A stretch of 53,418 nt of DNA, from the NCBI GenBank assembly GCA_017481825.1, contig JAFUOR010000054.1, forward strand, positions 1 to 53,418, written 5' to 3'. The DNA comes from Clostridia bacterium (GTDB lineage Bacteria > Bacillota > Clostridia > Christensenellales > Aristaeellaceae). This document shows, in pieces, positions 12,901 through 49,616 of the stretch. The position numbers were made by a program, and so were the translations under genes. Position 1 is the stretch's first letter. Every line of letters starts with the position of its first letter. Under the pieces are notes generated by a model. The model worked only from the letters and a program-made list of their open reading frames with translations. It ran no database searches and had not been told where the DNA came from.

Positions 12901-13203
12901 TTTACGACGGAGTACATGTCCGCCATGCTGGACACCTGCGTGGCCGAGATCGAGCCGGAAATGAAGATGCACTTTGCCCGCTGGGCGGAGCAGCATGATA
13001 AGTGGGTGCTGAGCGAGTGGCCCACGACGATTGATGGTGCCTACCGTTACTGGGAGCGCCGCGTCAACCGCCTCTACAACACGCTGAAAATTCGTCCGAA
13101 CTACCTCTGGGACTTTGTACAGGATGAGTTCAAGCTGACGGATGAGGAGATGGAGCGCTACTTTGGTCCTCAGCCGGAGCTGCCGGACGACGCCGTGCTG
13201 TAA
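9937..13203 (+). CDS. Membrane-anchored triple lamin-tail-domain CotH kinase-family protein
   Basis: A 1088-residue protein. A very basic N-terminus (KRRKQKRK) precedes one membrane span at about 38-55, with no cleavage site, so the rest should be extracytoplasmic. Three lamin-tail-like domains follow (about 86-215, 240-355, 401-540), each with I(S/T)EVM or EVC, then DW(I)EL/I(Y/W)N. A chitobiase-C-terminal-like module (about 558-631, YYTTDGSIPT) and a CotH kinase domain (about 634-1055) complete it. CotH signatures include GHYNLRERVDRF and LYDMDYGL (Asp933, Asp935). CotH of Bacillus is a spore-coat protein kinase; here membrane anchoring and the DUF4956 and VTC neighbours suggest a different surface role. 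Confidence 0.88.
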   Translation: MQPVQPQKRSRRAHAAPTVPETPPQVKRRKQKRKIGNMVALLALLALVLILVVVSPKDPVKHAYYTIGTDDNLVQGAGTTGDEYAGLVISEVMTSNKTAMPDENGNYPDWIEIWNSSDHDIEMENVGLSDDELSIAFLFPKMTLAAGERIIVLCDKTNQADANKPLHAKFGLSSNGETIVLYDRNAYMIDSVTTPIMSADESYARLEDSTWGRTTEFSPGYANTTEGHQTYRSATMVTEGALIISEVCPDPLTGYRDENGELCDWIELYNTTDKPVSLDNYALSNKDNKPLKWRFPTGAYVAPYGYYIVYCTGEDVVNSDPTAVPHANFRISAEHDTVILSDSRGRLVDRVTIDNIPEDASYARDEGGLFTVHLRPTPQLPNNDTGANQMDVYLRALNGTGVYITEVMASNDTTETTVGSDYVDWIELYNSSSSTVNLSGYGLSDNLGRARKWQFPEGTYINPGEYKIIWCDGDTTKNTASEPHTSFKLVKGGGETLVFADPTGRILDKVVLPAVPTNVSYGRTAGREGFFYYDTPTPGTLNGGGFLGYAAAPELTTAPGMHNQGVKVGFTLVEDAAVYYTTDGSIPTKSNGILYTGQEIELIYTTTLRACAYPYSTQYKESEVTTGTYLINKYHEMPVVCLTVDPEELWNETDGMLAEGPNIKRFDEEGNRIFPFENSIYREFGKIPREGYAEYYTEDGEQLFSQGVAIGLIGDYSLDMPQKSFKIRAKSLYGEKVFAASVFEDREFTEYKSLVLRNSGNDCAWTRLLDGFQSRLVDSYQAIKLAEDESGEYAEHQVIHQAWMPVAVYLNGTYWGHYNLRERVDRFFVAQHEGLSLDEASNMDILVGDGSVEYGSNKEYKAMLKKIKAGDPANNAEDLKYIEDNIDLDNFLEYMALEMFIGNSDIGNIRYYRLHGTDPETGEPYKWKWILYDMDYGLYSYSFNSPYSYTKEKGMGQMNIDNTIFKKVLSVPKYKELFLQKLGDIFQTFTTEYMSAMLDTCVAEIEPEMKMHFARWAEQHDKWVLSEWPTTIDGAYRYWERRVNRLYNTLKIRPNYLWDFVQDEFKLTDEEMERYFGPQPELPDDAVL

Positions 13204-21171: not shown

Positions 21172-21204
21172 AAAAAGGGCGGGACAGCGAGCGCCATCCC
21201 GCCC
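21172..21204 (-). terminator. Terminator between solute-binding protein and GH10-GH43 genes
   Basis: On the minus strand GGGCGGGA (21204-21197) pairs with TCCCGCCC (21184-21177), followed by TTTTT (21176-21172). It either ends the transporter operon or attenuates read-through into the glycosidase gene. Confidence 0.85.
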
Positions 21205-21236
21205 ATGGGGTTACTTGGCCGATTCAGCCGGACAAA

Positions 21237-22622
21237 TTACTTGTTGGCTTCGTCGATGTAGGCCTGCCAGGTGCCGCGCATGGCCTCAGCCTGCTCCGCG
21301 GGGGTCGCAGCTTTGGCATACACGTCGTAGAGGTAATCGTTGCCCAGGTCATAGCCCTGCACGACGGACACGTACCAGGGAGCCTGCGTGGTGGAGTCGA
21401 ACATCATCATGTTGATGGTCTCGTCCACAGCGCGATCGTCGCGGTACTTGGTATAGTAGCCGTTCTTCCAATCTTCATCGCCGTCGTAGCCGGGAGTGTC
21501 GTTGGTGAACAGGTTGTAGGCGAAGGCGATCTTCCAGGCGCGATCAGCGTCATAGTTGGCGGGGATGACGGAGATGTTGTCGGTGGGAGCCCACTGATAC
21601 TGGGTGGCCTGGGGGCCCTTGGGGAACATCACGAAACCGTAGTCGTCTTCCATGTTGGCCAGAGAACCGGAGAAATACTCCTCGTGGCACTGGATGGCAA
21701 CTTCGCCGTTGATGAAGGCAGACTCGAAGTAGTTCCACTCGGCGCCTTCGGGAGCGGCCATCTCGTACTTGTTCAGCAGGTCAACGACCCAGTTCACAGC
21801 TTCCAGGGTGGCGTCGGACTCGGCAGCGTTGTAGTAATTGCCGTTCTCGTCAACCAGCACGAAGCCGGACATGTTGGAGGTCACAGCCGCGGGGATGATG
21901 TGGGAGGAGAAGGACATCATGGCGTAGCGGTCAATGATGCCGTCGTTATCGGTGTCACGATGCAGCTTGGCCAGCAGCTCTTCGAAAGCAGCCCAGGTCC
22001 AGGTGCCGTCGGCCTGCATGTCATAGATGGACTCGGGGTCAACACCGGCCTCAGCCAGCAGGCGCTTGTTGAAGAAGATGCCCTTACGAGCCTCGGTGGT
22101 GCCGGGGCGCACGCCGTAGACGGAATCGCCCACGGTCATCAGGGTGCTGGTCATGTCGAACCACTTGTCGTCGGTCAGGTCGATGCAGTCCAGCTTGGCC
22201 CAGTCATAGAACAGGCCAGCAGCCATGGGGGCAGCCTGCACGCCGTCACGCAGGATCCAAACATAGTTCTCTTCGGAACCGGTGGTGGCGATGTTGGTGA
22301 AGTCCGTGGGGGAGTCGCTCCAGGTGGTAGCGGCAACGTTCTTGATCGTGAAGTTGTAGGTCTCCTCGATCCACAGACGATACTCCTCAGTCGCTTCGGC
22401 AGCAGCGGTTTCGGCATTGCCGATGTTGTCGTGCCAGTCGCTGGACCACCAGTCAGCGATGGTGATGACCATGCCGCCCAGGTCGTAGGGCTTGCCGGTC
22501 GCGGGGTCGATCTGGATCTCAACGCCGTACTCTTCGTAGGGGTTCTCGATGTCCTCGGCCATCGCGGGAACGCAGGCCAGCAGCATCATCAGAGCCAGGA
22601 TCATTGCCAGGGTCTTCTTCAT
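21237..22622 (-). CDS. Extracellular sugar-binding protein of an ABC transporter
   Basis: A 461-residue family 1 solute-binding protein. The signal peptide is MKKTLAMILALMMLLACVPAMAED; it contains LLAC, so it may be a lipoprotein, or be cut after AMA. The mature part has the SBP_bac_1 pattern, with ITIADWWSSDWHD near the start and FNKRLLAEAGVDPESIYD in the ligand hinge region. It delivers oligosaccharide to the two permeases encoded just upstream (22771-24802). AAGGAGG lies before the ATG. The 148-base gap before it holds a stem-loop, which may raise its expression relative to the permeases. Confidence 0.92.
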   Translation of the reverse strand: MKKTLAMILALMMLLACVPAMAEDIENPYEEYGVEIQIDPATGKPYDLGGMVITIADWWSSDWHDNIGNAETAAAEATEEYRLWIEETYNFTIKNVAATTWSDSPTDFTNIATTGSEENYVWILRDGVQAAPMAAGLFYDWAKLDCIDLTDDKWFDMTSTLMTVGDSVYGVRPGTTEARKGIFFNKRLLAEAGVDPESIYDMQADGTWTWAAFEELLAKLHRDTDNDGIIDRYAMMSFSSHIIPAAVTSNMSGFVLVDENGNYYNAAESDATLEAVNWVVDLLNKYEMAAPEGAEWNYFESAFINGEVAIQCHEEYFSGSLANMEDDYGFVMFPKGPQATQYQWAPTDNISVIPANYDADRAWKIAFAYNLFTNDTPGYDGDEDWKNGYYTKYRDDRAVDETINMMMFDSTTQAPWYVSVVQGYDLGNDYLYDVYAKAATPAEQAEAMRGTWQAYIDEANK

Positions 22623-22687
22623 GGGTAAACCTCCTTTTTATTTTTCTAAGCTCCTTTTACAAAGAGCCAAGAATCAATGAATGGGGT

Positions 22688-22729
22688 GGGGATGGGAACG
22701 CCTGATATGCTGTAATATTCGCCATCCCC
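22688..22729 (-). other. Intercistronic stem-loop before the 461-residue binding protein gene
   Basis: GGGGATGG (22688-22695) pairs with CCATCCCC (22722-22729) around a 26-base loop, with no T-run. Such structures before binding-protein genes commonly protect the abundant binding-protein message; here this is inference. Confidence 0.5.
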
Positions 22730-22770
22730 GGGGGAAATCCTTTTTAGTGTAAGGACTTTCGGGTAAGAGA

Positions 22771-23826
22771 TTACTTCAGGCCCGTGGAGGAGATGGACTC
22801 CACAAAGCCCTTCTGCGCAAACAGGTAGAGCACCAGCAGCGGCGCGATGACCATCAGCGTACCGGTGGAAACGTACTGCTGCTTGTGGCCCATGGTGGCG
22901 ACCTGACCAAAGCCTTCAAGGGATTCGATGTACTTGCTCAGTGCATCCGCAATGCCGGAGAGGCGCATGCTCAGCATGGGCAGGGAGGAATCCTTGATGA
23001 ACATCTTGGTGTAGAAGGTATCCGTCCACTGCCACACGAAGGCGAACAGGAAGCAGGACACCAGAATCGGCAGCGCATCGGGCAGGATGACCTTGTAGAA
23101 GGTCTTGAAGGTGGAGCAGCCATCCACGTAGGCGGCCTCCTCCAGGGACTTGGGGATACCGGCGAAGAACTGGCGGATCATGTAGATGTACAGACCGTTC
23201 TTCAAGCCCATGCAGGTCGCGGACATGGCGAAGTAGGGCACCGGCACGCTGATGACGCCCAGGTTAAGGTAATAGGCCTTGCTCAGCAGATTGATCTCGT
23301 TGCCGCCGTTGAACAGCCCCACGATGCCCATTGGGTTAAAATGGGAGAAGGACAGATGCAGCGCGGTGGAGATCGTCTGCGGCGGGATGATGACGGTGAG
23401 GATGATCGCAAAGAACCACAGCTTCTTGCCGGGGAATTCAAAGCGGGCGAAGCCATAGCCCACCAGGCAGCTGGCAGCCACCTGCAGCAGCGACACCAGC
23501 AGGGACACGGTAAAGGTGTTCTTGAAGGCGGCTGCGTAGTTGAGCAGCTGGGGGAGGGCGGCGGTCTCGTAATTCTCCGTCGTCAGGTGGCGGGGGATGG
23601 AGATGATGGTGGAATCATACAGATCCTGCTCTTCCATGAAGGATACGGATATCTTGGACAGAATGGGCTGCACGATCATGAAGCACAGGCCGAACAGCAG
23701 CAGGAAGCGGATGAATTTGTACGCCTTGTTGCCGACGGTCTTCTTGAACAGATAGCCGCCGGACTTCCGGTTGCGCTCCCAGAAGCTTTCGGAGGGCTTT
23801 GCGTGCGCGACGATCTTCTTACTCAT
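22771..23826 (-). CDS. Carbohydrate ABC transporter permease, MalG type
   Basis: A 351-residue inner-membrane permease with six membrane segments. The EAA loop that docks the ATPase is EEAAYVDGCSTFKTFYKVILP. The N-terminal cytosolic extension (about 40 residues) is longer than usual for MalG. Its start overlaps the end of the preceding permease gene by 8 bases, so the two are translationally coupled and form a heterodimer by analogy with MalFG. No ATPase is encoded in the window; a shared MsmX-type ATPase is likely. Confidence 0.93.
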   Translation of the reverse strand: MSKKIVAHAKPSESFWERNRKSGGYLFKKTVGNKAYKFIRFLLLFGLCFMIVQPILSKISVSFMEEQDLYDSTIISIPRHLTTENYETAALPQLLNYAAAFKNTFTVSLLVSLLQVAASCLVGYGFARFEFPGKKLWFFAIILTVIIPPQTISTALHLSFSHFNPMGIVGLFNGGNEINLLSKAYYLNLGVISVPVPYFAMSATCMGLKNGLYIYMIRQFFAGIPKSLEEAAYVDGCSTFKTFYKVILPDALPILVSCFLFAFVWQWTDTFYTKMFIKDSSLPMLSMRLSGIADALSKYIESLEGFGQVATMGHKQQYVSTGTLMVIAPLLVLYLFAQKGFVESISSTGLK

Positions 23827-24802
23827 CGGAACTTACCACTCCCTTCGAAAGAATCACAGAGCACAGGCCGATCATCACCAGGGTGATGGCGAAGTAGATC
23901 CAGTTCATGGCGGCCACACGGTCGTAGTTGAAGTTAAGCAGCGCGTCGTCCAGCAGATCGGAGAGGTCGCCGCTCATCTTGGTGTAGAAGTCGACGATGG
24001 TGTAGATGATGTTGACGATCAGCAGGGGAGAAACCATGGGGAAGGTGATCATCCAGAAGGCCTCCCACTTGGTGCAGCCCTCCACGTCCGCTGCCTCGTA
24101 GAGGGAAGCGGGCACATTCTGGAGGCCGCTGAGGAACACGACGATCTGGATGCCGGAGCCCATGACGATGTCGTACACCTCTGCGATCAGCTCAAACACC
24201 ACGTCCAGCACATTGCCGCCCAGGCCGGTCAGACGGAGGATTTCCATCATCGAGTCGGTCACGGTGAAGGGCGTCTGCTCGCTGATCAGATCCTGCATAC
24301 CCTGCATGAGGGTGTTGTCCGTTTCCAGATTGACCAGCACGCCGCTGGAGAGGATGACGGGCAGGAAGAAGATGGCGCGGACAAAGGCACGGCCCTTGAA
24401 TTCCTGGTTGAGCAGGATGGCAATCACGAAGGACACCACAATGATGGCGATGGTGTGGGTGCCGATTTTGGTGATTTCCTCCAGCAGGTACTGATTAAAC
24501 TTGGGATCGACGGTCAGGGCGTACTTGTAGTTGTCCAGGCCCAGCAAGTCAATGACCGCAGCGATGAAGCCGCTTTCATTCACCACGCCGAGGAAAGTGG
24601 TGCCCTCCGTCATGCCAAAGTAGGAGACCATGTGGAAGCCGGTGGAGCTGATGGTTTCAGAGTTGACCTTGCTGAAGGACATCTGCAGCGACATCAGCAG
24701 GGGAGACACCATGAACGCCACAAAGCCGATGACGAACGGCAGGATGAACAGATAGCCGGAGATGGATCGCTTTGCCCTCATGGACAGATGCCTGCGGCTC
24801 AT
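23819..24802 (-). CDS. Carbohydrate ABC transporter permease, MalF/LplB type
   Basis: A 327-residue permease. It begins MSRRHLSMRAKRSISGYLFILPFVIGF, with a first span typical of LplB/UgpA-like proteins. The EAA loop is LYEAADVEGCTKWEAFWMITFP. A large periplasmic-side loop lies between the first and second spans, as in MalF relatives. It overlaps the DUF5696 gene by 4 bases (ATGA) and the next permease gene by 8. Confidence 0.93.
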   Translation of the reverse strand: MSRRHLSMRAKRSISGYLFILPFVIGFVAFMVSPLLMSLQMSFSKVNSETISSTGFHMVSYFGMTEGTTFLGVVNESGFIAAVIDLLGLDNYKYALTVDPKFNQYLLEEITKIGTHTIAIIVVSFVIAILLNQEFKGRAFVRAIFFLPVILSSGVLVNLETDNTLMQGMQDLISEQTPFTVTDSMMEILRLTGLGGNVLDVVFELIAEVYDIVMGSGIQIVVFLSGLQNVPASLYEAADVEGCTKWEAFWMITFPMVSPLLIVNIIYTIVDFYTKMSGDLSDLLDDALLNFNYDRVAAMNWIYFAITLVMIGLCSVILSKGVVSSDE

Positions 24803-27390
24803 TCGATCGCCTCCTTTGCGGTGGTGTAGGAGCGGGCCGGGATGGTCACGCCGTCCACCTCAGCGTCGGTGTAGCCGAAGTTGACGTACACCCGCATGCC
24901 GTTTTCATAGGTGGTCACAGCAACGCTGCCGGTGCGCTCATGGTCGGTCATCTTCTGATTGAAGGTGCCGCTCATGCTCTGGTTGTAGGCCTCGACGGTG
25001 GCGATCATATCATCATAGACGATGGATGCGTCCGCGCCGTAGAACTCGGAGAACCAGGAATCCTGCAGCTCCTCCACGTCGTCGGCCATCAGGGTGAACA
25101 TGAGGCTCGCGCCCATTTCAGCCGAGCGCAGCAGCAGCTCCTCACGGTCATCCGCCAGGTTGATGGCGGCGCCGGTGTAGGTCACAGAGCCATGGAGCGC
25201 AGCGGGGTAGAAGGGGATGAACTCGTCGATGATGCGGTAAGCTGTACCGTCAAGGTCCATGTCCGTCACGATGTCGGAGAGCACGGCCGCGTAGTCGTTG
25301 CCCTGGCGGATCATGATGGACTGGCCCTCGCTGCGCAGCTCCTGGAGCTTGGCGATCTGCTGCAGACGGGTCTCCTCGCGGGTGGTCAGATCCTTGGCGT
25401 TGTAGTCGCCGCTGAGCATGCCGCCCAGATCGCGGAAGGAAACGCCCGCCGCGCCGTACTGGGCCGCAGCGTCGCTGAGGACGTCCACGGCGTTCAGCGC
25501 CAGCTCAGGCTTGAGCAGGTAGTAGCTGTCACGATCCTCAATGGGGCCGTACCAGATGGAGGAATATTCGGGGATTTCCGCTTCCTCGCGGGTGGTGTGC
25601 TGGGCCGCGTCGCGCATGGCCAGGAAGCCCTCCAGCAGGCCGCTGTCACGGGCAAACTGGGTCAGGCCATCCAGGTAGAGCGGAACGCCGGCGTCGCTGG
25701 CAGCCTTGGCAAAGGCTTGGAGCTCGCTTTCGCTGCCCAGCTCGTTCATCAGGCGGATCTTGTTCAGGATCGTTTGATTCAGGCCGCCGTTCATCCAGCC
25801 AGTGTAGCGGATGGAGAGGTTCGGGAGGTTCTCGGCAAGCAGCTTTTCCAGCAGCTCGCTGGCCTGATGGTAGGTGGTCATGGCGATCGGCACGTTGGTG
25901 GGAACGCCGAAGACCTGCTGCACCTTGTCGATGGCGCCGACCATTTCGACCACGGTATGCGCCTCGGAGGAAACCTCCTGCAGCAGCTCGGGGTGCTTGG
26001 CGGTCAGGTACTCGCGATAGGCGGCAGCCATGTCCATGTAATTATCGCTGGCCACGAAGCGGTAGCGCTGACGGAGGGTGCCCTCGGGCAGCTGCTGCTC
26101 GAACATGTAGACATTGTTGTTCGTTCGCTCGGACACATCGTAGGAATCGCCGTGGATGATGGTGTATACGGCATTGGCGCTGTTGTAGGAGCCATAGCCG
26201 GAGCGTCCGGCCACGTCAGCATTCACGCCTGCCCAGGATACGCCGTCCTCCATGATGCACACGAAGGAGCTGCCGGCGGTAGCCATGCCGAAGACAGGGA
26301 AGTTCATGCGGGTTTCCGACACGATCTCCTTGCGGATGGACGCCCAGTCCCAGCCGTACATGTTGGCGTAGTAGGGATTCTGCTTGGTTTTGCCGTTGTT
26401 GTAGCGGATCAGTGCGCCGCTGCCCTCGGGCACCATGATGTAGCCGGTTTCATCCATGCCCGCAGAACCAAAGGCGGGGAGGATGTTCAGCGACGTGATC
26501 GGGTAATCGGGGTTGTAGGTGATCTTTTCCAGGGGAACCTCAACCACCAGATCATCGCCCTCCAGGCGGTAGGCGATGGTCACGTTGAAGATGGGCTTGT
26601 CAGTTGCGCCTTCCACCTGGCCCTCACGGACGATACGGCTCTCGTCGTATTCGTAATCATCCGCGGTGTAACCGCCCTTGACCAGGGCCGTTTCCAGCTT
26701 GGTCATGGCGTTGGCCTTCATGTCCTTGTTGCGGATGATCCAGACGAGCTCGTTCTTCAGGTCGGGGTAGGTGGCCTCCAGCGCAGCCACATCGTCCTTT
26801 TTCTTGTATTCGCCCTCGCCCTTGAGCTGGTAGGCGTCGGTGATGGTGCGCTGATCTTTCTTTTCAAGGTTGGCCAGGATGGTCTGCAGGCGAGCATCGG
26901 TGATGGCCTCGGGGTAGAGATAGGTGCGGGCGATATCACCAATGGTGAAGGTGACGTAGATCGTGTCGCCCTCGCGCGTGACCTCGTAGAGGCTATTGGT
27001 GACCGAACGGGCGAAGGTATTGAAGTTGGTCTGCTTGCCGGTGTTGTTCTTGTAATCAAGCGTCAGGATGGACTGCAGACGTTCCTTCTCGTTGAGCATG
27101 GTGTTGGCGTCGTTTGCAACGCCCGGGGCGATGGAAGACCACACCTTGCCCGTGCGATTGTCGGTCACGGTGAAATGGGTCGTATCGGGATCAAGGGTGA
27201 AGGTCAGGTTCTCGCTGGTGAGGGTGAAATCGCCCTCTGCGCCGGTGTAGCGTTTGATGTCGGGAACGAAGGTGGCATCGTCTGCCGAGGTGTCAAACAG
27301 GGGCAGGATGATCTTCGTGACAAAAAGCACCGCCAGCAGGAGAAGAACCAGCCCGAGTACGATGCGCCAGATGATGCGTCGTTTCTTCAT
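24799..27390 (-). CDS. DUF5696 domain protein, membrane anchored
   Basis: An 863-residue protein with one N-terminal membrane span (about 9-30) and no cleavage site, so the bulk is probably outside the membrane. The first 250 residues look beta-rich (LTFTLDPDTTHFTVTDNRTGKVW). The second half has barrel-like segments such as GVPLYLDGLTQFARDSG and GAAGVSFRDLGGML, reminiscent of a glycoside-hydrolase TIM barrel. I cannot name catalytic residues. The family recurs in sugar ABC operons of Paenibacillus and Clostridia (from memory) and has no known function. It overlaps the following permease start. A surface glycan-binding or trimming role is inferred from context. Confidence 0.78.
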   Translation of the reverse strand: MKKRRIIWRIVLGLVLLLLAVLFVTKIILPLFDTSADDATFVPDIKRYTGAEGDFTLTSENLTFTLDPDTTHFTVTDNRTGKVWSSIAPGVANDANTMLNEKERLQSILTLDYKNNTGKQTNFNTFARSVTNSLYEVTREGDTIYVTFTIGDIARTYLYPEAITDARLQTILANLEKKDQRTITDAYQLKGEGEYKKKDDVAALEATYPDLKNELVWIIRNKDMKANAMTKLETALVKGGYTADDYEYDESRIVREGQVEGATDKPIFNVTIAYRLEGDDLVVEVPLEKITYNPDYPITSLNILPAFGSAGMDETGYIMVPEGSGALIRYNNGKTKQNPYYANMYGWDWASIRKEIVSETRMNFPVFGMATAGSSFVCIMEDGVSWAGVNADVAGRSGYGSYNSANAVYTIIHGDSYDVSERTNNNVYMFEQQLPEGTLRQRYRFVASDNYMDMAAAYREYLTAKHPELLQEVSSEAHTVVEMVGAIDKVQQVFGVPTNVPIAMTTYHQASELLEKLLAENLPNLSIRYTGWMNGGLNQTILNKIRLMNELGSESELQAFAKAASDAGVPLYLDGLTQFARDSGLLEGFLAMRDAAQHTTREEAEIPEYSSIWYGPIEDRDSYYLLKPELALNAVDVLSDAAAQYGAAGVSFRDLGGMLSGDYNAKDLTTREETRLQQIAKLQELRSEGQSIMIRQGNDYAAVLSDIVTDMDLDGTAYRIIDEFIPFYPAALHGSVTYTGAAINLADDREELLLRSAEMGASLMFTLMADDVEELQDSWFSEFYGADASIVYDDMIATVEAYNQSMSGTFNQKMTDHERTGSVAVTTYENGMRVYVNFGYTDAEVDGVTIPARSYTTAKEAIE

Positions 27391-27410
27391 GAAACGGTTC
27401 TCTCCTTTCG

Positions 27411-28076
27411 TTAGTAGAGTCGGAAGGTGATCTCTTTATAGATCGAGGTGAAGTAGCCCACGCCGTCGCCCACCAGGGTGAAGAACAGCAGGAGCAGGAA
27501 GATGATGATCAGCATGGCCAGCAGCGTCATGACGATGAACAGCAGCGTCTTGGCCAGACCGTAATCGTGGATCATCATCATGCCGCACACGATCAGGCCG
27601 CCGCTCCACAGGAGGGAAAGCGTGTTCAGGATGTTGTAGAATGCGGCTTCATCCACGGTCACGGCGTTGGAGAGCACGATCATCGGCAGCTGCAAAAGGA
27701 CGTAGGGGGTCAGGGCGTAGGCCGTGGCCATGTAGACGTCCTTCAAGGTGCCCTTGCCTTCAAACAGGGTGGTCAGGCCCCAGTTGCCCACAACGAAAAT
27801 CACCAGCGGCAGCAGCACGGAGAGGCACTGCTGAACGATGTTGACTGAGGGCCAGTAGACCTCATTGAAGAGGAAGGAGGTGTGCTCCAGGGAGAGGAGG
27901 CGAACCACCAGCACGGAGAACACGATGATGTTTGCTGCGCCCATGGAGCCGCGCTTTTCGTGGGTCAGATCCCAGAAGCCGTCGAAGGGGTGGGTCATGA
28001 CATGCAGGGCGTATTTGAGCGAGGCGCCCAGGCGGCCCCAGCGCTTCTTATCCGTCAGGCTGCTTACGATGCTCAT
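27411..28076 (-). CDS. Yip1-family polytopic membrane protein
   Basis: A 221-residue protein with five predicted membrane spans and a YIP1-like arrangement: a short cytosolic N-terminus with MTHPFDGFWDLTHEKRGS, then hydrophobic helices. Start ATG 28076 is chosen because it overlaps the preceding stop (ATGA) and has GGAG upstream; a longer reading starts at 28094. Bacterial Yip1-like proteins have no established role. Its place between the NHL/TPR and DUF5696 genes suggests it helps assemble or anchor this transporter system. Confidence 0.75.
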   Translation of the reverse strand: MSIVSSLTDKKRWGRLGASLKYALHVMTHPFDGFWDLTHEKRGSMGAANIIVFSVLVVRLLSLEHTSFLFNEVYWPSVNIVQQCLSVLLPLVIFVVGNWGLTTLFEGKGTLKDVYMATAYALTPYVLLQLPMIVLSNAVTVDEAAFYNILNTLSLLWSGGLIVCGMMMIHDYGLAKTLLFIVMTLLAMLIIIFLLLLFFTLVGDGVGYFTSIYKEITFRLY

Positions 28077-29572
28077 GAATTCTCCACCTCCCACTTGATC
28101 TTCTTGATGCGGCCGATGATCATGGGAACCACCAGCAGCACAGCCACCACGCCGAAGATCCAGCCGATGTTCTGCTCCACCAGCTCGCTGCGGTAGTAGC
28201 GGAAGGCTTCGGAGTAGTTCTTGGCGTCGCGGGCCATCTTGAAGTAGTCGCAGGCTTCCTTGTACTCGCCCTGCTGGAGCTTCGCGCGGCCGATGCCGAT
28301 GTAGGCCAGATCGTAGTTGCCGTTCTGCTTGAGCACCTCCAGCCAGGTGTCGGCGGAAGCGTCGTATTCGCCGCGATCGTAGAGCTCGGTGGCCTCGTAG
28401 ATCTGCTGGCCATAGGTGGTGGGCGTCATAATGGTGAGCGCTGCGGCCTGGGAATCCAGCACCAGCAGGTCATAGCCCATGTGCTCAAGGGCGGAGGGCT
28501 TGTTGAAGTAGCCCACGGCGTTGCCCAGGCCGCCAAAGGCCCAGAGCATGTTGCCCTGATGATCGTAGCCGAAGAGGCGGTTGTGGGTTTCGTCCAGCGC
28601 AACATAGATGTCATTGTCCAGGACGGTAATATCCACAAACTTGGACGGGCCAGTGCGGGAGAGGTTGGAGTCGCCCGCGGCCCACTGCACGTCGCCCACG
28701 ACCCACCAGTTGCCGTTCTCAATGAGGATGTTGGTGCCCAGGCTGTTCAGCCGGCGGACGGGCTCTGCGCCGCCGCCCATGAGCTCATTCTCATCGAAGG
28801 TCTGGGTCACGACGTAGAAGAAGCCCTTCTCGTCGATGGCGATGTTATCGTATTCGGTGGGAACGAAGGAGGACTGCTGGGCGCGCTGCTCCTTGGTGGA
28901 GATCAGGCGCCAGATCAGCTCATACCAGGTGTACTTGACCGGGGAGGCGCCGATGAAGCCGGTGAAGGTTGCATCGGCCTCGTACTTGATCAGACCCTTG
29001 TTGACGTTCTGCGCCAGCGCGAAGACACGGCCGGAAACGTCCGCTACAAGCTTGGTGGGCAGGTAGGAGAGCTCCTGATCGAAGGTTGCGTCGGAGGGCT
29101 TGAGGAAGGACTGAATGTAGTTCAGATCCTTATCCAGCTTCAAGATGCGGTTGTTGGCGGTGTCCGCGATGTACATCGTGCCGTTTTCCTCGACGTAGAT
29201 GTCCTGCGGGCCATTGAAGGTGAGGGGCTCCACATCACCGGTGAAGCTGTCGATGTAGCGGGTTACAGTGTACGTGCCGTTATCGTGGTGCAGCTGGATG
29301 ATGCGGTTGTTGCCCGTATCCACCACGTAGATGTCATCACCCTGAACAAACAGGCCGGAGGGGTTGACCATCTGCTTATCAAGCCCCAGGTCGGCGCTGG
29401 TCAGGAAGGACTTCACGCGGTAGGCGTCGGGGCTCTGGCGGAGGTCACCCCAGTAATCGTAGGTGTAGGTGTAGGCGTAATCAAAGCCGTCGGCAGCCTG
29501 GGCCAGCGGGATACCTGCGAGCAGGCATACCGCACACAGCAGTGCCGAAAGACGCAGGATGGCGTTTTTCAT
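28073..29572 (-). CDS. Secreted NHL beta-propeller protein with TPR and C-terminal membrane span
   Basis: A 499-residue protein. Its signal peptide begins MKNAILRLSALLCAV and ends near AQAADG. NHL-type repeats follow (VNPSGLFVQGDDIYVVDTGNNRIIQL, FNGPQDIYVEENGTMYIADTANNRIL, and more), making a likely six-bladed propeller over about 50-390. A short TPR-like helical region (about 395-465) precedes a C-terminal membrane span at about 475-493 and a basic tail. Thus a large extracytoplasmic propeller is tethered by the C-terminus. ATG 29596, overlapping the previous stop as TAATG, is an alternative start adding 8 residues. Binding of glycan or of transporter partners is plausible; no enzyme motif is seen. 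Confidence 0.78.
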   Translation of the reverse strand: MKNAILRLSALLCAVCLLAGIPLAQAADGFDYAYTYTYDYWGDLRQSPDAYRVKSFLTSADLGLDKQMVNPSGLFVQGDDIYVVDTGNNRIIQLHHDNGTYTVTRYIDSFTGDVEPLTFNGPQDIYVEENGTMYIADTANNRILKLDKDLNYIQSFLKPSDATFDQELSYLPTKLVADVSGRVFALAQNVNKGLIKYEADATFTGFIGASPVKYTWYELIWRLISTKEQRAQQSSFVPTEYDNIAIDEKGFFYVVTQTFDENELMGGGAEPVRRLNSLGTNILIENGNWWVVGDVQWAAGDSNLSRTGPSKFVDITVLDNDIYVALDETHNRLFGYDHQGNMLWAFGGLGNAVGYFNKPSALEHMGYDLLVLDSQAAALTIMTPTTYGQQIYEATELYDRGEYDASADTWLEVLKQNGNYDLAYIGIGRAKLQQGEYKEACDYFKMARDAKNYSEAFRYYRSELVEQNIGWIFGVVAVLLVVPMIIGRIKKIKWEVENS

Positions 29573-29595
29573 CTTAGCGGTCGTCCTTTCTCGCA

Positions 29596-30540
29596 TTAGT
29601 CCTTCAGGCCGGAGGTGGCCATGGTTTCAAGAATCTGGCTCTGGGAGAGGATGAAGGTGATGATGGGCACCAGCATGACCACGACGGTAACCGCCGCAGC
29701 CTGACCGGTACGGGCAATGCCGCCGGCCTGGATCTGCTGGAGTGCATAGACCAGGGTCTTCTTCGCCTCGGAGTAGATGACCGTGGAGGCCTTGGCGTTC
29801 CACAGGCTTTGGACGGAGAAGATGATCATCGTCAGCCAGGCGGGCTTGACGTTGGGCATCACGATCTGCCAGAAGATACGCATTTCCTTCGCACCGTCGA
29901 TCTTGGCGGATTCGATCAGCGCCATGGGGAGGCCCTCCATGAACTGCTTCATCAGGAACATGCCCATGGGCGCCGCCAGCGCAGGCAGCAGGATGGCCCA
30001 GTAGGTATCCACGATGTGCATGTTGCTCATCAGCAGATAGTTGGGGATGGCGGTCACGTAGCCGTTGAACATCAGGGCGGTCACGACCAGGTTGAAGAAG
30101 GGCTTGCCCAGAGGGAAGTCGTACTTTGCCAGGACGTAGGCGGCCAGGGAGCCGATGACCACGTTGCCGAAGGTACCCACAACCGTAATCAGCACGGTGT
30201 TGGAGATGTAGCGGGAGAAGGGCACCCAGCTCTGGCTCATGGTGACCAGCAGATCGGAGAAGTTATCCAGGGTAGGCTGGCGGGGGAAGAGCGTGGGCGG
30301 GAAGCGGAAAAGCTCGTCAAGGGGTTTGAGGGACGAGCAGATGGCGAACAACAGCGGGAAGGCCATGGCGCAGGCCACGATGGCCAGCAGCAGGTAAATC
30401 AGGAAGTCGCCAACGCGGGAGCGGTTGGGCTTCTTGGCTTTGGCCTTGGCGGTCTGCTGGAGGCGGAGAACCTTCTTGGGCACCTCGATGGGCGTGCCGT
30501 CAGCACGGACGGGGCCCTTGTAATGCTTCACTGTCGTCAT
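29596..30540 (-). CDS. Carbohydrate ABC transporter permease, MalG type (second set)
   Basis: A 314-residue permease with six spans. A 45-residue cytosolic N-terminus rich in Lys precedes the first span (VGDFLIYLLLAIVACAMAFPLLFAI). The EAA loop is IESAKIDGAKEMRIFWQIVMP. Start ATG 30540 is preceded by AAAGGTGG; the preceding gene ends 2 bases upstream. It pairs with the permease at 30542-31480. Confidence 0.93.
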   Translation of the reverse strand: MTTVKHYKGPVRADGTPIEVPKKVLRLQQTAKAKAKKPNRSRVGDFLIYLLLAIVACAMAFPLLFAICSSLKPLDELFRFPPTLFPRQPTLDNFSDLLVTMSQSWVPFSRYISNTVLITVVGTFGNVVIGSLAAYVLAKYDFPLGKPFFNLVVTALMFNGYVTAIPNYLLMSNMHIVDTYWAILLPALAAPMGMFLMKQFMEGLPMALIESAKIDGAKEMRIFWQIVMPNVKPAWLTMIIFSVQSLWNAKASTVIYSEAKKTLVYALQQIQAGGIARTGQAAAVTVVVMLVPIITFILSQSQILETMATSGLKD

Positions 30541-30541
30541 G

Positions 30542-31480
30542 TTATGTACCCACCTTTCGCAGCGCACTCTGAATGAGCTTGTTGCAAAGGATCATCACAA
30601 TGAACAGCAGCGTTGCGATGGCCGATGCGTAGCCCATCTCAAAACGAGTGTAGCCATAGTCGAACAGGTGTGTGACAACGGTGCGGGCGGCGTAGTCCGT
30701 GGAGGGGTAGCCGGCCAGCGCCATGGGTACGTCACACACGCCGAAGGCCTGCGTGATGGCCATGACCGCACCGAAGAGCAGCATGGGCTTCATGTTGGGG
30801 AGGGTAATGTAGTACAGCTCCTGCCAGCGGTTGCGGATGCCGTCCACATAGCCGGCCTCGTACTGGGCGCGGTCAACGCCCTGCAGGCCTGCCACGAAGG
30901 ACAGGAAGCCCGTGGACATGGACATCCACAGCGTTACCACCACGATGACGGGCATGATGTAGTCCGGTGTGGTGAGCCACAGCAGGGGCGTGTTGATGAT
31001 GCCCAGACTCATCAGCAGGGAGTTCAGGTAGCCGTAGGCGTCGCCGCGGAAGATGATGGAGAATATCTGATACGCATTGCCTGCGATGGAGGGCGCGTAG
31101 AAGATCAGCACGGCGAGGGTGCGGATCCAGCGGGGCAGCTCGTTGATCAGCCAGGCGAAGCCAAAGGACATGATGTAGCCGATGGGGCCAGTGATCACCG
31201 CGAGGGTGAAGGTGTTCGTCACAGCCTTGAGGAACACGTCGTCCTGCAGGATCAGGCTGGTGTAGTTGTCTGCGCCAACGAACTTGGCGGGCTCCAGAAT
31301 GTTGTAATAGGTAAAGGAGTAGTAGATCGAGGTCAGCATCGGAAGAATGTAGAATGCCAGAAAGAGGATCGCGTAGGGAGCCAGGAAGCCATAGCAGAAC
31401 TTGTGGCGCTTGGCCTTGTCCCAGGCGATGATGGCATTGCGCTTCTTCAGTGCCGCATATTTCTTCAGAAACGTAGTCAT
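30542..31480 (-). CDS. Carbohydrate ABC transporter permease, MalF type (second set)
   Basis: A 312-residue permease with six spans, beginning MTTFLKKYAALKKRN, with first span FLAPYAILFLAFYILP. The EAA loop is YEAGYVDGIRNRWQELYYITLP. It directly follows the giant binding-protein gene (24-base gap) and precedes its MalG partner. Together these three encode one full importer apart from the ATPase. Confidence 0.93.
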   Translation of the reverse strand: MTTFLKKYAALKKRNAIIAWDKAKRHKFCYGFLAPYAILFLAFYILPMLTSIYYSFTYYNILEPAKFVGADNYTSLILQDDVFLKAVTNTFTLAVITGPIGYIMSFGFAWLINELPRWIRTLAVLIFYAPSIAGNAYQIFSIIFRGDAYGYLNSLLMSLGIINTPLLWLTTPDYIMPVIVVVTLWMSMSTGFLSFVAGLQGVDRAQYEAGYVDGIRNRWQELYYITLPNMKPMLLFGAVMAITQAFGVCDVPMALAGYPSTDYAARTVVTHLFDYGYTRFEMGYASAIATLLFIVMILCNKLIQSALRKVGT

Positions 31481-31504
31481 GTCAGGGTGTTCACTCCTTT
31501 CCTA

Positions 31505-34417
31505 TTATTCAAGCGGCAGGCCGAACTCGCTGCGCTTCTTCACGATCTCCTCGTTGATGGTACGTGCGTAGTCAAGCAGGGTCTCGCGCGGATCGGTCTT
31601 GTCATTGGTCACCTTGCGGACAGCGTTGGTCAGGTGGCGGGTGGTGTAGTAACCGCCTGCAACCTCGCGGAAGCCCACGGCCCACTGCATCTGCTCGCGG
31701 ATGACCTTGAGCTGATCCTCGGACCAGGCCAGCTGCTCGATGGCCTCGATGTTCGCGGTGGCGTAGCGGGCAGAGGAACCTAGGATGGCCTCAATCTCAC
31801 GGCCGAAGCGCACTTGGGACTCGGTGGAGACCCACCACTTCATGAACTCCCAGGCACATTCCTTGATGTACTCGTCTTCCGTGGCGATCATCATGCAGCA
31901 GGAGCCCTGAGAATGACCGGAATGGTCAACATAGGTGGTGCCGTCCTCATTCACACGCTCGGTGCCGGGCATGATGGCGATATCCCACAGGCCGCGGATT
32001 TCGGGCGCGGAAACGGTCAGAGTGTTGAAGGTCGTGTAATCGAAGATACCCATGGGCATTTCGCCGGAGCGGAAGCGGCTCACGAAGTCGAAGATCGTAG
32101 GCAGACCGTAGTCGTTGTACAGGGAGGTGTACATCTCGAAGGCCTGGACGCCCGCCTCGGAGTTGATGGTGGTCACGGTGGCGTCCTCGTTGTACAGAGC
32201 GCCGCCGCGCTGATAGAGCATCGAATACAGGCTGGACAGGTTGGGCGCCACGATGTCCGGATAGGGGATGCCCAGGGACATGTTTGCACCCTGAATGGTG
32301 GGCAGCATGGCGATCAGGTCGTCCCAGGTTTCGGGAACCTCAAGGCCATACTCCTCCAGAATGTCGCTGCGGTAGAAGAGGATGGAGCACAGCTGGGTCT
32401 CCGGCAGGGCGTAGATGCCGACGTTCTCGCCGTTGTCGAAGCTGAAGGCCTGATAGGCGCTGGGGTAGAAGTCGGAGAGGACTTCCTCCAGATCATCGAA
32501 CTGGGTCAGATCCTCCGCCGCGCCGCGCAGAGCATAGTTGACAGGGTTCCAGGAATCGGTGGAGACAACCACGTCAGGGCCGTTGCCGGCGACGGTGGCG
32601 TTCAGCAGCGCGTTGGGATCAACCAGCATGACATTGACGGGAATGCCGGTGTTGGGCGTGAAGGTATCATCGACCATGGTCTTGAGTACCGTGGACTGAT
32701 CGCGGCCGGTGAGGATCCACACCTCCAGCACGCTGTCCTCATCGCCCTCGTACACATTGCCCAGGGCGTTGTAATCGACGGTGTAGGAAGCCACACAGGA
32801 GACGATCTCGTGAATGGCCTTGCTGATGAAGCTTTCCGACTGGGCGGCGACGCTCACGCCATCGGCCGTGATGGTGATCTGGTCGATATCCAGCTTGACC
32901 TGACGCAGGTTCTGCATCGCGGTGCCCAGGGAGGTGATGTTGTCCTTGAAGTTGGTGAAGGCCTGGGTGATCTCCGCAGGGTCGTCCACGAAGGTTTCCA
33001 GCTGTACGGCCAGGGTCTGCGCCGCAGCCACGCGGTCGGACTTCTGGCCCGTCACGGCGACGGAATCATCCACCAGCTTGTAGAGCAGGCGGCTTTCCAG
33101 ATCCATGGCCTGAATGACCTCGGGGTACACCTGCTCCAGATGGTAATCGCGGTACTGATCGGGCGTCACGCCGGTGAGCACCAGAATCTTGCGGTAAATC
33201 TGGTTCAGGCGGTAGATGCTCTCCTCCATATCGGAGAGGATGGAGCCCATATCGCCCAGGGTGGCCTCCAGGCGGATGGTGTGCTTGCCTGCGGTCAGGT
33301 AGAAACGATATGCGTTGCCTTCGCTGTCGGAGAGGGTATTCATCGTCCAGGTGGTGGAGTAGGGGAACTGCACGTTCTCCAGGCCATCAAAGGGCGTTTC
33401 GCCGTCCAGGTAGAAGATGCGGCTGGACACGCTGCCGCGGCTGTAGGTCTGGCGGCCCTTGATGGTGATGTTATACCAGCCGTCCGAGGGAACCTCGAAT
33501 TCCCATTCGATCCACTGGCCCGCATCGCGCCATGCATCGCCGCCGATGTAGTTCAGCACGGTGGCATAAACGTTGCAAGGCTCGGTGGCCGGGGAGGAAC
33601 GGTCATAGCGCGCATACAGGGAGGGAGAGGAGCGGCGGGTGCTGTCCTCGCCCTGAACGGTAATGGCGAAATCCTTCAGCGCCTCTGGTTGGCTGTTCAT
33701 GGGCTGTGCGGCGATGTAATCCTCGTAGCTCTGCTGCTGGCCAGGGGCCTTGAGCGTGATGCCGCTGAGGATGAAGGGCTCGCTGCTGGCCACGAGGGTC
33801 AGGGTGCTCTCGCCTGCCGGGAAGTAGAAGCGGTAGGGCTCGGTGATGTAGCCCATGGCGTCGCGGCAATAGGCGGTCTGCCAGTCGAAGATTTCCACCT
33901 GCGTGGGGCGGATCTCGTTGCCCTGGTTGTCTGTCCTGACCTCGCCGCCGTCGGCCCACAGGCGGCTGAAAGCCATGGTGTCCGCGCCGTCAAAGGGCAA
34001 TTCGCCGTTGATGCGCAGCTCGCGCTCCAGATCAACGCCGCGGCTCTCCACGGTCAGATAGGTCAGCGCTACATTATAATAGCCTGCCTCGGGCACCGTG
34101 ACCGTCCAGGTCGCCTCGGAGCCGCTGGCGGTATAAACGCCCTCCTCGCGGACCTCGACGCCCTCTGCGGTGGTGACCGTTGCCATATCCACGGCAATAT
34201 CCGCCGTCGCATCCGGGGTACCCTCGTGCGATTGCAGATAGAGCTCATAGGTGTTGTCGCGGCCGATGCCCGCAACGCCGGTGGTCAGATCCGTACCCGC
34301 ATACTTGTCGGCGTAGTTCTCCACGCCGCTGGACAGGTAGAACCACAGCGCCAGTGCCAGCACCACCACGGCAGCTACGATCCATTTTCCGTACTTGTTG
34401 CCGAATGAACGCTCCAT
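31505..34417 (-). CDS. Giant membrane-anchored solute-binding protein with two N-terminal beta-sandwich modules
   Basis: A 970-residue protein, about twice the usual length. Instead of a lipobox it has an uncleaved-looking membrane anchor (WIVAAVVVLALALWFYLSSG, about 13-32). Two similar carbohydrate-binding-like modules follow (about 60-215 and 250-385), sharing the pattern VP(E/S)(A/D)G(Y/W)YN followed by FDG. A helical linker (about 385-520) leads to an SBP_bac_1 domain (about 555-955: VWILTGRD, GPDVVVSTDSWNP, ETWDDLIAMLP). AAGGAGGG lies 12 bases upstream. It is the first gene of the operon, divergent from an AraC regulator. Binding of a long or decorated glycan by the extra modules is inferred. 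Confidence 0.85.
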   Translation of the reverse strand: MERSFGNKYGKWIVAAVVVLALALWFYLSSGVENYADKYAGTDLTTGVAGIGRDNTYELYLQSHEGTPDATADIAVDMATVTTAEGVEVREEGVYTASGSEATWTVTVPEAGYYNVALTYLTVESRGVDLERELRINGELPFDGADTMAFSRLWADGGEVRTDNQGNEIRPTQVEIFDWQTAYCRDAMGYITEPYRFYFPAGESTLTLVASSEPFILSGITLKAPGQQQSYEDYIAAQPMNSQPEALKDFAITVQGEDSTRRSSPSLYARYDRSSPATEPCNVYATVLNYIGGDAWRDAGQWIEWEFEVPSDGWYNITIKGRQTYSRGSVSSRIFYLDGETPFDGLENVQFPYSTTWTMNTLSDSEGNAYRFYLTAGKHTIRLEATLGDMGSILSDMEESIYRLNQIYRKILVLTGVTPDQYRDYHLEQVYPEVIQAMDLESRLLYKLVDDSVAVTGQKSDRVAAAQTLAVQLETFVDDPAEITQAFTNFKDNITSLGTAMQNLRQVKLDIDQITITADGVSVAAQSESFISKAIHEIVSCVASYTVDYNALGNVYEGDEDSVLEVWILTGRDQSTVLKTMVDDTFTPNTGIPVNVMLVDPNALLNATVAGNGPDVVVSTDSWNPVNYALRGAAEDLTQFDDLEEVLSDFYPSAYQAFSFDNGENVGIYALPETQLCSILFYRSDILEEYGLEVPETWDDLIAMLPTIQGANMSLGIPYPDIVAPNLSSLYSMLYQRGGALYNEDATVTTINSEAGVQAFEMYTSLYNDYGLPTIFDFVSRFRSGEMPMGIFDYTTFNTLTVSAPEIRGLWDIAIMPGTERVNEDGTTYVDHSGHSQGSCCMMIATEDEYIKECAWEFMKWWVSTESQVRFGREIEAILGSSARYATANIEAIEQLAWSEDQLKVIREQMQWAVGFREVAGGYYTTRHLTNAVRKVTNDKTDPRETLLDYARTINEEIVKKRSEFGLPLE

Positions 34418-34539
34418 GATCTCTGTCAGCCCTCCTTAACTGATGAATGAAAATGGTAACGAAAGCCCAATGGGCGTATCGCTAGCATCATTCTGTGTTT
34501 CATCATTTGAGTTATCAAAAACGGATTGTTTCCAACCAC

Positions 34540-34545
34540 ATTATA
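34540..34545 (-). promoter_or_regulatory. -10 element for the transporter operon, poor -35
   Basis: On the minus strand a perfect TATAAT (34545-34540) lies about 120 bases before the start of the giant binding-protein gene. The hexamer 17 bases upstream is TGTAAT, a poor -35. This is the usual picture for an activator-dependent promoter, fitting the divergent AraC-type regulator. Confidence 0.6.
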
Positions 34546-34602
34546 CTATGTCAGCGGCTTTGATTACATCTCAAAATTTGCGCAGTATACGTCAGAATTT
34601 GC

Positions 34603-34631
34603 TTGAAAACTTCTGTGATTTGTGGTAGGAT
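34603..34631 (+). promoter_or_regulatory. Promoter for the AraC-type regulator
   Basis: TTGAAA (34603-34608), 17 bases, TAGGAT (34626-34631), about 75 bases before the start codon. Confidence 0.65.
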
Positions 34632-34704: not shown

Positions 34705-35628
34705 ATGAAACAGAAGCCGTTGGTGCAGGAAGAGGACAGGGAGCAATTCAGGTATGGTTTTCGCGTTTTGAAGGATGACCATGAATTTGTTACCTACCCG
34801 GCGAACACCAGCATCCGCGTGTGGCACCGCCGGGGCGATCCGGATCTTTATGAAGAACATTTCCACTCTGCGGTGGAGGTGCTTTTGCCCATCGCGGGCG
34901 AGTGTGTCACGATGGTGGAGGGCACGGAGTATCATGTGCGTGCAAACGAGGTCATGATCATCCCCGCCGGCGGGCACCATACGCTGCGCATGGATGCAGG
35001 CTGCGAACGGGAATTGATGCTCTTTGAAATGAACGGCGTATTCACGATGAAGGAATTCGGCACTTTCCGCCAACTGCTGAACAAGCCGATCTATCTGACG
35101 ACTGAGCATCCCTGCTGCGAAAGGGTGCGGGAGATCTTCTTTGAGGTGATCCGTGTGCATCGCAGCGATGCGCTGCTGCGCAACCTGTATTCCTATGCGC
35201 TGCTGCTGGAGATCTACGCCCTGCTGGGGGAGGACTACCTCAAGCGCAGCGCGTCCCCGGCGGAGATGAATGCCCTCAACCGCCAGCTGTCTGGCGAGGA
35301 CGCCTTCAACCGCGCGCTGGATTATGTCAATGAGAACTACATGGACGATCTCTCCCTGGACACCCTGGCGACCTATGCCGGGTTTTCCCGCTATACGCTC
35401 TCGCGCATGTTCCGCCAGCATACGGGCTCGACTTTCACGCAGTACCTCAACGCCCGGCGCGTCCGCATGGCCATGGAGCTGCTCTCCGGCACCAGCATGC
35501 CTGTGACGCAGGTGGCGCTCCAGTGCGGCTTCAACAGCATTGCTACGTTCAATCGCGTTTTCCGGGAGATTCGCGGCTGCACGCCCACGCAGTACCGGAT
35601 GATCTACGACGAATCCCAGCGAAAATGA
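34705..35628 (+). CDS. AraC-family transcriptional regulator with cupin sensor
   Basis: A 307-residue regulator. The N-terminal cupin (about 35-115) shows HFHSAVEVLLPIAGE and NEVMIIPAGGHHTL, the usual sugar-sensing fold. The C-terminal pair of helix-turn-helix motifs (about 205-300) is typical: LSLDTLATYAGFSRYTLSRMF and PVTQVALQCGFNSIATFNRVF. The GGAG 11 bases upstream is a weak ribosome binding site. It is divergent from the 13 kb transporter operon and convergent with the GH27 gene, and is the obvious candidate activator of that operon; the ligand is probably a sugar or oligosaccharide from xylan or galactan. Confidence 0.92.
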   Translation: MKQKPLVQEEDREQFRYGFRVLKDDHEFVTYPANTSIRVWHRRGDPDLYEEHFHSAVEVLLPIAGECVTMVEGTEYHVRANEVMIIPAGGHHTLRMDAGCERELMLFEMNGVFTMKEFGTFRQLLNKPIYLTTEHPCCERVREIFFEVIRVHRSDALLRNLYSYALLLEIYALLGEDYLKRSASPAEMNALNRQLSGEDAFNRALDYVNENYMDDLSLDTLATYAGFSRYTLSRMFRQHTGSTFTQYLNARRVRMAMELLSGTSMPVTQVALQCGFNSIATFNRVFREIRGCTPTQYRMIYDESQRK

Positions 35629-38599: not shown

Positions 38600-38616
38600 G
38601 AATGAATATGAAGCGC

Positions 38617-49548: not shown

Positions 49549-49553
49549 CAGTA

Positions 49554-49582
49554 TAGACAAAAGCTGACCCGTGTAGTATAAT
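49554..49582 (+). promoter_or_regulatory. Promoter for the small XRE regulator
   Basis: TAGACA (49554-49559), 17 bases, TATAAT (49577-49582), 35 bases before the start codon. Confidence 0.8.
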
Positions 49583-49616
49583 AATGCTGATATCCGCAGA
49601 AACGGGGGAGGGCAAT

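Follow-up and report, generated by a model that had tools for sequence, protein, structure and literature searches.

The xylan degradation locus (XDL) of Caldicellulosiruptor bescii, Athe_0174-0185, carries the run xloEFG-X-GH129-axoFGE-xyn genes and is induced on xylan (PMC8579813, Rodionov and others). The part of that account considered here infers control of the operon by two regulators, the LacI-type XynR and the GntR-type AraR; it assigns X no role and does not list any member of glycoside hydrolase (GH) family 129 as inactive. A second source, in the sections considered, lists the locus under XynR as 14 genes including xylan ABC (ATP-binding cassette) transporters and gives measured binding of XynR to operators (PMC12285236). 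Here we analyze a nine-gene operon that compares closely with the XDL, carried by a 53,418-nucleotide contig (JAFUOR010000054.1, assembly GCA_017481825.1; Clostridia bacterium, Aristaeellaceae), the whole of which we call the window. We put the probability at roughly 55% that this operon encodes a single machine importing hemicellulose oligomers that are long or branched, here most likely those of (arabino)xylan, in which the glycosidase-like protein DUF5696 would hold or thread the chain and an NHL/TPR protein together with a Yip1-domain protein would provide a scaffold.

The genes run along the minus strand from 34417 to 21237 in the order SBP1, MalF1, MalG1, NHL/TPR, Yip1, DUF5696, MalF2, MalG2, SBP2 (SBP, solute-binding protein). 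Adjacent genes overlap or lie at most 24 bases apart, the sole exception being MalG2-SBP2 (148 bases). The first-pass annotation of the window, made from its letters by themselves, had proposed nine minus-strand genes in this order with a terminator at the end, and coordinates, Pfam matches and a stem scan bear this out. The nine genes are as follows.

31505 to 34417, minus: SBP1, giant membrane-anchored family 1 solute-binding protein, 970 residues (Pfam SBP_bac_1, E 4.6e-23 over 578-868)
30542 to 31480, minus: MalF1, CUT1-type permease subunit (BPD_transp_1, E 3.3e-12; EAA-like motif EAGYVDG)
29596 to 30567, minus: MalG1, CUT1-type permease subunit (BPD_transp_1, E 6.1e-15; EAA-like motif ESAKIDG)
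28073 to 29596, minus: NHL/TPR protein (Pfam NHL, E 5.6e-11; TPR_16, E 1.6e-6)
27411 to 28094, minus: Yip1-domain polytopic membrane protein (Pfam Yip1, E 8e-13)
24799 to 27390, minus: DUF5696, N-terminally anchored, 863 residues (PF18952, E 3.7e-174)
23819 to 24802, minus: MalF2, CUT1-type permease subunit (BPD_transp_1, E 5.9e-9)
22771 to 23826, minus: MalG2, CUT1-type permease subunit (BPD_transp_1, E 2.5e-10)
21237 to 22622, minus: SBP2, solute-binding protein by profile match to 6rjy

The gene order SBP-F-G-X-GH129-F-G-SBP is common to the XDL and the window. Locus L190 of our set, probably the C. bescii locus, has the XDL order, with an NHL-Yip1 fusion in the X slot and DUF5696 in the GH129 slot. 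The two differ in that X is one gene there, whereas NHL and Yip1 are separate genes in the window; in that control by XynR and AraR is inferred there (PMC8579813, in the part considered), whereas an AraC-type regulator stands beside the window operon; and in that a single GH10-GH43 gene follows the operon in the window. The first-pass annotation's view of the operon as a candidate for an undescribed system is not supported, since by gene content and regulon the same operon is known as the XDL (PMC8579813, same part). A proteome study (PMC5865380, in the part considered) names Athe_0181, which by gene order would be SBP2, as one of the three proteins with the highest specificity for complex substrates. 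Literature searches found nothing on DUF5696, nothing relevant on Yip1 with NHL repeat, ABC transporter and xylan, and nothing on Yip1 in Caldicellulosiruptor. Among mostly non-subscription papers and top-listed titles, X, Yip1 or DUF5696 as transporter subunits and the XDL GH129 as inactive were not found; the parts considered of PMC12838199 held nothing on the sought terms and those of PMC4765114 nothing to the point. As far as these sources go, the module has been described in one genus, within a xylan locus, and we have not seen it recognized there as a transporter with fixed extra subunits. What is new is how widely the module occurs, that NHL and Yip1 can be fused, that the "GH129" is degenerate and that the core can be separated from the first importer.

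Classical CUT1 importers, such as MalEFGK2 and MsmEFG with MsmX/MsmK, have family 1 SBPs, MalF/MalG permeases with an EAA-like motif and an ATPase encoded elsewhere in common with the window operon. Unlike them, the window has two permease pairs and three extra membrane proteins in one conserved unit, and an SBP1 of 970 residues with extra domains. In the Sus-type uptake of Bacteroidota, surface capture of long oligomers and import are carried out by one apparatus built on SusC/SusD; the likeness is one of function, in outline, and the window uses ABC importers instead of SusC/SusD. A general Pfam scan gave no SusC-like or SusD-like match among the nine genes, no search having been aimed at them.

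Conservation of the core and its movable partner

One hundred genomes of the window's family were searched with PF18952 and with 14-row profiles for the NHL/TPR protein and the Yip1 subfamily. Some DUF5696 match occurs in 54 of them and the full-length type in 46, at 87 places (second pieces and small fragments of matches were not counted as genes). The NHL/TPR profile matches 86 places in 45 genomes, 84 of which lie beside a full-length DUF5696 and two on contigs without one; the Yip1 profile matches 85 places in 45 genomes, and every one is beside a full-length DUF5696. Conversely, a full-length DUF5696 without adjoining NHL was seen at three of the 87 places: G028:C319 and G092:C18, both at contig ends, and G063:C63. 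The genome of the window itself holds three further copies of the module, on contigs C13, C16 and C151 (L049-L051); the C16 copy, which lies on a contig of 10 kb where neither SBP1 nor MalF1 was detected, has NHL and Yip1 fused.

Beyond the family, 398 genomes of the phylum were surveyed with at most three candidates scored per genome. DUF5696 matched at some level in 46 and above the family cut-off in 39; apart from the window's own, 15 families hold strong matches, and gene order was checked in nine of these. We fetched 100 family regions (86 with the full-length type), 40 phylum regions from the nine families (the best 40 of the 55 strong places in genomes other than the window's) and 14 loci from a collection scan. 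L036, L038, L039 and L041 duplicate the contigs of L082, L060, L058 and L055 and were left out; the window itself is outside the set. A DUF5696 gene of more than 60 bits and more than 1400 bases was present in 139 loci, and removal of four short homologues left 135 full-length loci. In 132 of the 135 the gene immediately upstream of DUF5696 is Yip1 or NHL-Yip1, and in 132 the one immediately downstream is MalF2; on either side the three remaining loci are at contig ends. A chance assembly of genes is rejected by this co-occurrence and constant order. The tie between the extra families and sugar permeases proposed in the first-pass annotation is supported: rather than lying mostly away from sugar permeases, as it had said they might if it were wrong, they do the opposite in family and phylum loci alike. 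Three uncharacterized subunits that are nearly always found together, in 46 of 100 family genomes and in 15 other families, make a defined gene set for study.

The first importer is less constant. SBP1-MalF1-MalG1 is found in the fetched locus in 109 of 139 cases. Loci of two phylum families, f66 (L161, L163, L164, L165) and f51 (L169, L175), have NHL-Yip1, DUF5696, MalF2 and MalG2 but, within the region fetched, no SBP1-MalF1-MalG1; in L178 and L188 (f107) the SBP1-MalF1-MalG1 genes stand downstream of the core instead of upstream. SBP1 relatives occur somewhere in the genome in all 10 core-bearing genomes tested. Because the SBP1 importer is missing beside the core or relocated around it in some loci, the invariant unit is NHL/TPR, Yip1, DUF5696, MalF2 and MalG2, and SBP1-MalF1-MalG1 is a frequent, movable partner of this core. 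That both permease pairs always occur together is rejected by the loci without SBP1-MalF1-MalG1 beside the core.

The window NHL/TPR protein has an N-terminal hydrophobic, signal-like segment (13-31), NHL repeats, TPR and a C-terminal transmembrane segment (472-490). In 53 loci outside the window NHL-Yip1 is a single polypeptide with Yip1 at the C terminus of NHL/TPR; fusions between other pairs of the nine families were not seen over the whole fetched set. In loci lacking Yip1 as a gene of its own, NHL encodes a protein of ∼670-840 residues, of which the C-terminal 200 match the Yip1 profile; shorter fused genes are at contig ends (L104, L177). Hydrophobicity agrees: of 82 NHL proteins shorter than 640 residues, 79 have one C-terminal segment, and 51 of the 52 longer proteins have at least five. 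In a FastTree phylogeny built from 132 DUF5696 sequences, of which 53 come from fused loci and 78 from split loci with one left unassigned, the fused or split state changes six times, at least five changes being forced by starred branches; long branches are flagged in this tree, including joins of fused and split rows. The NHL/TPR and Yip1 proteins, judged from these sequences, appear to act together as one unit, often as one polypeptide.

Such a unit could also be read as part of a glycan sensor or transceptor, in which NHL/TPR-Yip1-DUF5696 would report extracellular oligomers via the permease and so control transport or transcription. Repeat domains placed before C-terminal transmembrane helices, an enzyme-like DUF5696 without the reference residues described below and a divergent regulator nearby all speak for it. 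We regard it as very unlikely, as Pfam finds no known cytoplasmic output domain in the window Yip1 or NHL proteins and in C. bescii control of the operon is assigned to the LacI-type XynR and the GntR-type AraR (PMC8579813, in the part considered).

Fold and residue pattern of DUF5696

A 14-row DUF5696 profile matches the GH129 enzyme ZgGH129 (Protein Data Bank [PDB] 5opq, E 4.2e-12) and, weakly, NagBb (E 0.14-0.23). An AlphaFold model of the window protein (mean predicted local distance difference test score [pLDDT] 68.8; predicted template modeling score [pTM] 0.67) was compared with known structures using Foldseek; ranks 1-11 are GH129 entries, with TM-scores of 0.44-0.61, and ranks 12-26 are GH101 entries or fusions built on one. 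The match extends over most of the chain (5opq, E 3.9e-27; NagBb 5wzn, E 3.3e-20; TM-scores 0.45-0.59), and the entry titles name the mutants ZgGH129 D486N and GH101 D764N and E796Q. Profile, moderate model and Foldseek agree on the beta-sandwich and TIM-barrel fold of GH129, and DUF5696 is accordingly modeled with a GH129/GH101-type fold. All nine short DUF5696 homologues scanned from outside the operon give weak matches to a GH101 or GH129 model, the best at E 1.2e-8, which links DUF5696 to both families; two of the nine pass the curated cut-off, and eight also match DUF6259. The statement in the first-pass annotation that DUF5696 has no assigned function was too strong: it is labeled GH129 in C. 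bescii (PMC8579813, in the part considered), and profile and fold agree with the label, although residue loss argues against activity.

Eight reference positions were picked for their invariance in 14 short homologues (those fetched of 26 short, divergent or fragment places), so that all eight are present there by construction and the test lies in their absence from the 132 long, transporter-linked sequences. In window numbering the short homologues share Asp538, His574, Asp579, Asp654, His667, Glu695, Asp699 and His733. The window protein has Asn, Asp, Phe, Asp, Asp, Arg, Asp and His at these positions and so keeps three of eight (D654, D699, H733). Retention among the 132 is nil for H574 and D579, and rises through D538 (2), H667 (8), E695 (24) and D699 (42) to D654 and H733 (81 each). 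The model places residue 654 after a strand at 649-652 and residue 695 after one at 691-694. These two are presumably strands 4 and 5 of the barrel, where GH129/GH101 enzymes usually have their nucleophile and acid/base, and 654 and 695 would thus correspond to those two residues. D654 and E695 occur together in six of the 132, and the best sequence keeps four of the eight positions; the window protein, with Arg at 695, would lack the complete set of nucleophile, acid/base and surrounding residues that marks GH129. What is conserved instead are glycines, prolines and aromatics, among them Y345 (128/132), Y451 (129/132) and W532 (121/132). DUF5696 therefore resembles ZgGH129 (5opq/8rzk), NagBb (5wzn) and GH101 in fold over most of the chain and differs from these enzymes in lacking most reference residues, in its N-terminal membrane anchor and in its place inside a transporter operon.

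The reference residues are largely lost, and a normal GH129 enzyme is rejected for most transporter-linked members. On this residue pattern they are likely pseudo-glycosidases whose catalytic machinery is largely gone. This suggests that a protein labeled GH129 in a model biomass degrader is not an ordinary enzyme. Part of the same data points the other way. The nucleophile-like D654 is kept in 81 of 132, window included; 67 have an acidic residue no more than three positions from 695; D654 is accompanied by Asp or Glu at 695 in 19; Asp or Glu stands at 574 in 91; and the alignment of short with transporter-linked sequences is uncertain at such distance. Single members may, on these residues, be active. 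The GH129 fold, D654, the acidic residues near 695 and the published C. bescii labels XloEFG, AxoFGE and GH129 (PMC8579813, in the part considered) would fit two ordinary CUT1 importers of different specificity, co-transcribed with a structural NHL protein and an active surface glycosidase of GH129 type, which would trim side chains ahead of uptake. We consider that arrangement unlikely, as none of the 132 sequences keeps more than four of eight reference positions and nothing about an independent enzyme would require that it always sit between Yip1 and MalF2.

Two side observations concern relatives of the protein. The short homologues L135-L148 (∼560-660 residues) stand outside the nine-gene module and, with their GH101/GH129-like residue pattern, are possibly an uncharacterized glycoside hydrolase group. 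Seven of their 14 regions (L137, L139, L141, L144, L145, L146, L148) also hold other permease genes, and none of the 14 gave an NHL or Yip1 match. L085:7037-10945 encodes a DUF5696 protein of 1302 residues, carrying a long additional stretch in its interior and a C-terminal extension.

Importer components and the proposed machine

The best profile match of SBP1 is Lin1841 (5ysb; E 6.3e-20, over 559-822). Its architecture comprises an N-terminal transmembrane segment (hydrophobic at 13-31), two beta-rich domains, a helical region and a C-terminal SBP domain; the AlphaFold model (mean pLDDT 57.7, pTM 0.48) places strands at ∼74-223 and 251-386 and helices at 390-504 and is too poor for a fold search. 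At E 1e-4, the profile search matched no PDB chain to residues 1-555. For SBP2, Pfam gives nothing even at E 1; its 12-row profile, searched against PDB sequences only, matches the arabino-oligosaccharide binding protein 6rjy (E 6.5e-17), and an LLAC motif seen by eye in the signal region suggests that it is possibly a lipoprotein. In L157 and L162, both phylum loci, at least five SBP2-like genes or gene pieces directly follow the core, which suggests interchangeable binding proteins for one permease.

All four window permeases match Pfam BPD_transp_1 (E 5.9e-9 to 6.1e-15) and carry an EAA-like motif, from which coupling to an ATPase is expected for both pairs. A strict pattern recovers the motif in 82 of 114 MalF1, 97 of 115 MalG1, 94 of 136 MalF2 and 97 of 135 MalG2 sequences of the fetched set. 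Pfam finds no ATPase gene among the nine operon genes. OB_MalK matches above cut-off lie at three places on other contigs of the same genome, two of them MsmX-like by eye, in line with the MsmX-type ATPase encoded elsewhere that the first-pass annotation had expected. The parts of a CUT1 ABC importer, namely permease pairs with EAA motif, family 1 SBPs and a MalK/MsmX-type ATPase elsewhere in the genome, are thus present. In length-filtered sets (113 MalF1, 133 MalF2, 78 MalG1, 126 MalG2), MalG2 has a median of 334 residues versus 296 for MalG1, with extra segments, and a 15-residue stretch of MalF1 is missing from MalF2. These differences fit docking of extra subunits, which falls short of proof.

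The same length difference (∼38 residues in MalG2, with extra segments) and the strict association with MalF2-MalG2, not with SBP1-MalF1-MalG1, would suit an alternative in which NHL/TPR-Yip1 and DUF5696 serve to assemble or stabilize MalF2-MalG2 and make no direct contact with glycan. A glycosidase fold with conserved Y345, Y451 and W532 suggests, without proving, sugar contact, and we think this alternative rather improbable.

In the import machine that we favor, giant anchored SBP1 would feed MalF1-MalG1 and SBP2 would feed MalF2-MalG2, both CUT1 pairs being driven by the MsmX-type ATPase encoded elsewhere. DUF5696, N-terminally anchored and facing outward, would hold or thread the glycan at the mouth of MalF2-MalG2 instead of cutting it; NHL/TPR-Yip1 would be its membrane scaffold; and the imported oligomers would be cut inside the cell by GH10-GH43. 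Besides the residue data above, several points weigh against this machine. A physical complex, the holding of glycan by DUF5696, the hand-over and the substrate are parts of it that we infer. SBP1-MalF1-MalG1 is absent from 30 of 139 fetched neighborhoods (four are short homologues, and some are at contig ends), and a single assembly of both permeases is thus not required. The degraded-looking G063:C63 (L125) lacks a recognized NHL, its DUF5696 match being in two pieces and its Yip1 truncated. Foldseek TM-scores of the DUF5696 model are 0.46-0.59, and the model is moderate, with poor active-face loops (534-549, 576-626, 697-722). Finally, neighboring enzymes differ between groups of loci, so the substrate is not one glycan and the module seems to serve several hemicelluloses.

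We raise, as a tentative and still doubtful extension, a distinct class of ABC importer found across the phylum, in which an NHL/TPR-Yip1 scaffold and a catalytically dead GH129-fold protein would join CUT1 permeases in a single surface assembly, the dead protein threading long, branched hemicellulose into the pore; it would be a Gram-positive counterpart of Sus. Gut, rumen and thermophilic relatives degrade plant fiber, and annotation usually treats their transporters as ordinary importers with two permeases.

Neighboring enzymes, borders and other genes

Around the operon lie three further features.

21172 to 21204 (stem 21204-21177), minus: intrinsic terminator-like stem-loop, 12 pairs (9 G-C), then TTTTT
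18584 to 21088, minus: GH10-GH43 fusion enzyme (Glyco_hydro_10, E 8.5e-80; Glyco_hydro_43, E 1e-28), by eye without obvious signal peptide
34705 to 35628, plus: divergent AraC-type regulator with sugar-sensing-like N-terminal domain (HTH_18, E 9.2e-26; AraC_binding, E 4.6e-7)

The GH10-GH43 gene starts ∼90 bases past the terminator-like stem, on the strand of the operon. Its domains point to (arabino)xylan as the window substrate, and the apparent lack of a signal peptide suggests cutting after import; the enzyme is likely an intracellular hydrolase of xylan oligomers. Same-strand neighbors were compared in a census of 66 + 74 + 75 = 215 of 325 proteins, with family counts taken among the first 25 families listed. 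Window-like loci (66 proteins) have GH10 (9), GH5 (6), GH43 (3) and GH130 (3); other loci of the family (74) have an arabinofuranosidase C-terminal domain (10), GH43 (7) and CBM65 (6); and those across the phylum (75) have GH26 (5), GH43 (5), GH42 (4) and GH3 (3).

The scan gave 14 terminator-like sites versus 8.7 (sd 2.7) in shuffles, so only the strength of stem 21204-21177 carries weight. Promoter-like sites (5 versus 6.1 in shuffles) were no better than chance and are uninformative, and an Rfam scan of the window gave no match. The AraC-type regulator, upstream of the operon, is likely a local regulator; beyond it come an alpha-galactosidase-like (Melibiase_2) gene and then a MATE transporter gene.

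Elsewhere in the window, a 1208-residue open frame (49473-53099, minus) has no Pfam match even at E 1 and would, if a gene, encode a large protein of unknown kind. Opposite-strand frames of 615 and 614 residues overlap at 38602-40449 (plus) and 38617-40461 (minus), the plus-strand one without Pfam match; a 656-residue frame at 43920-45890 (plus), also without Pfam match, follows two M42 peptidase genes. A large CotH kinase protein (9937-13203, plus) has lamin-tail domain matches in three stretches, and 2856-3875 (minus) combines helix-turn-helix and methyltransferase domains in one protein.

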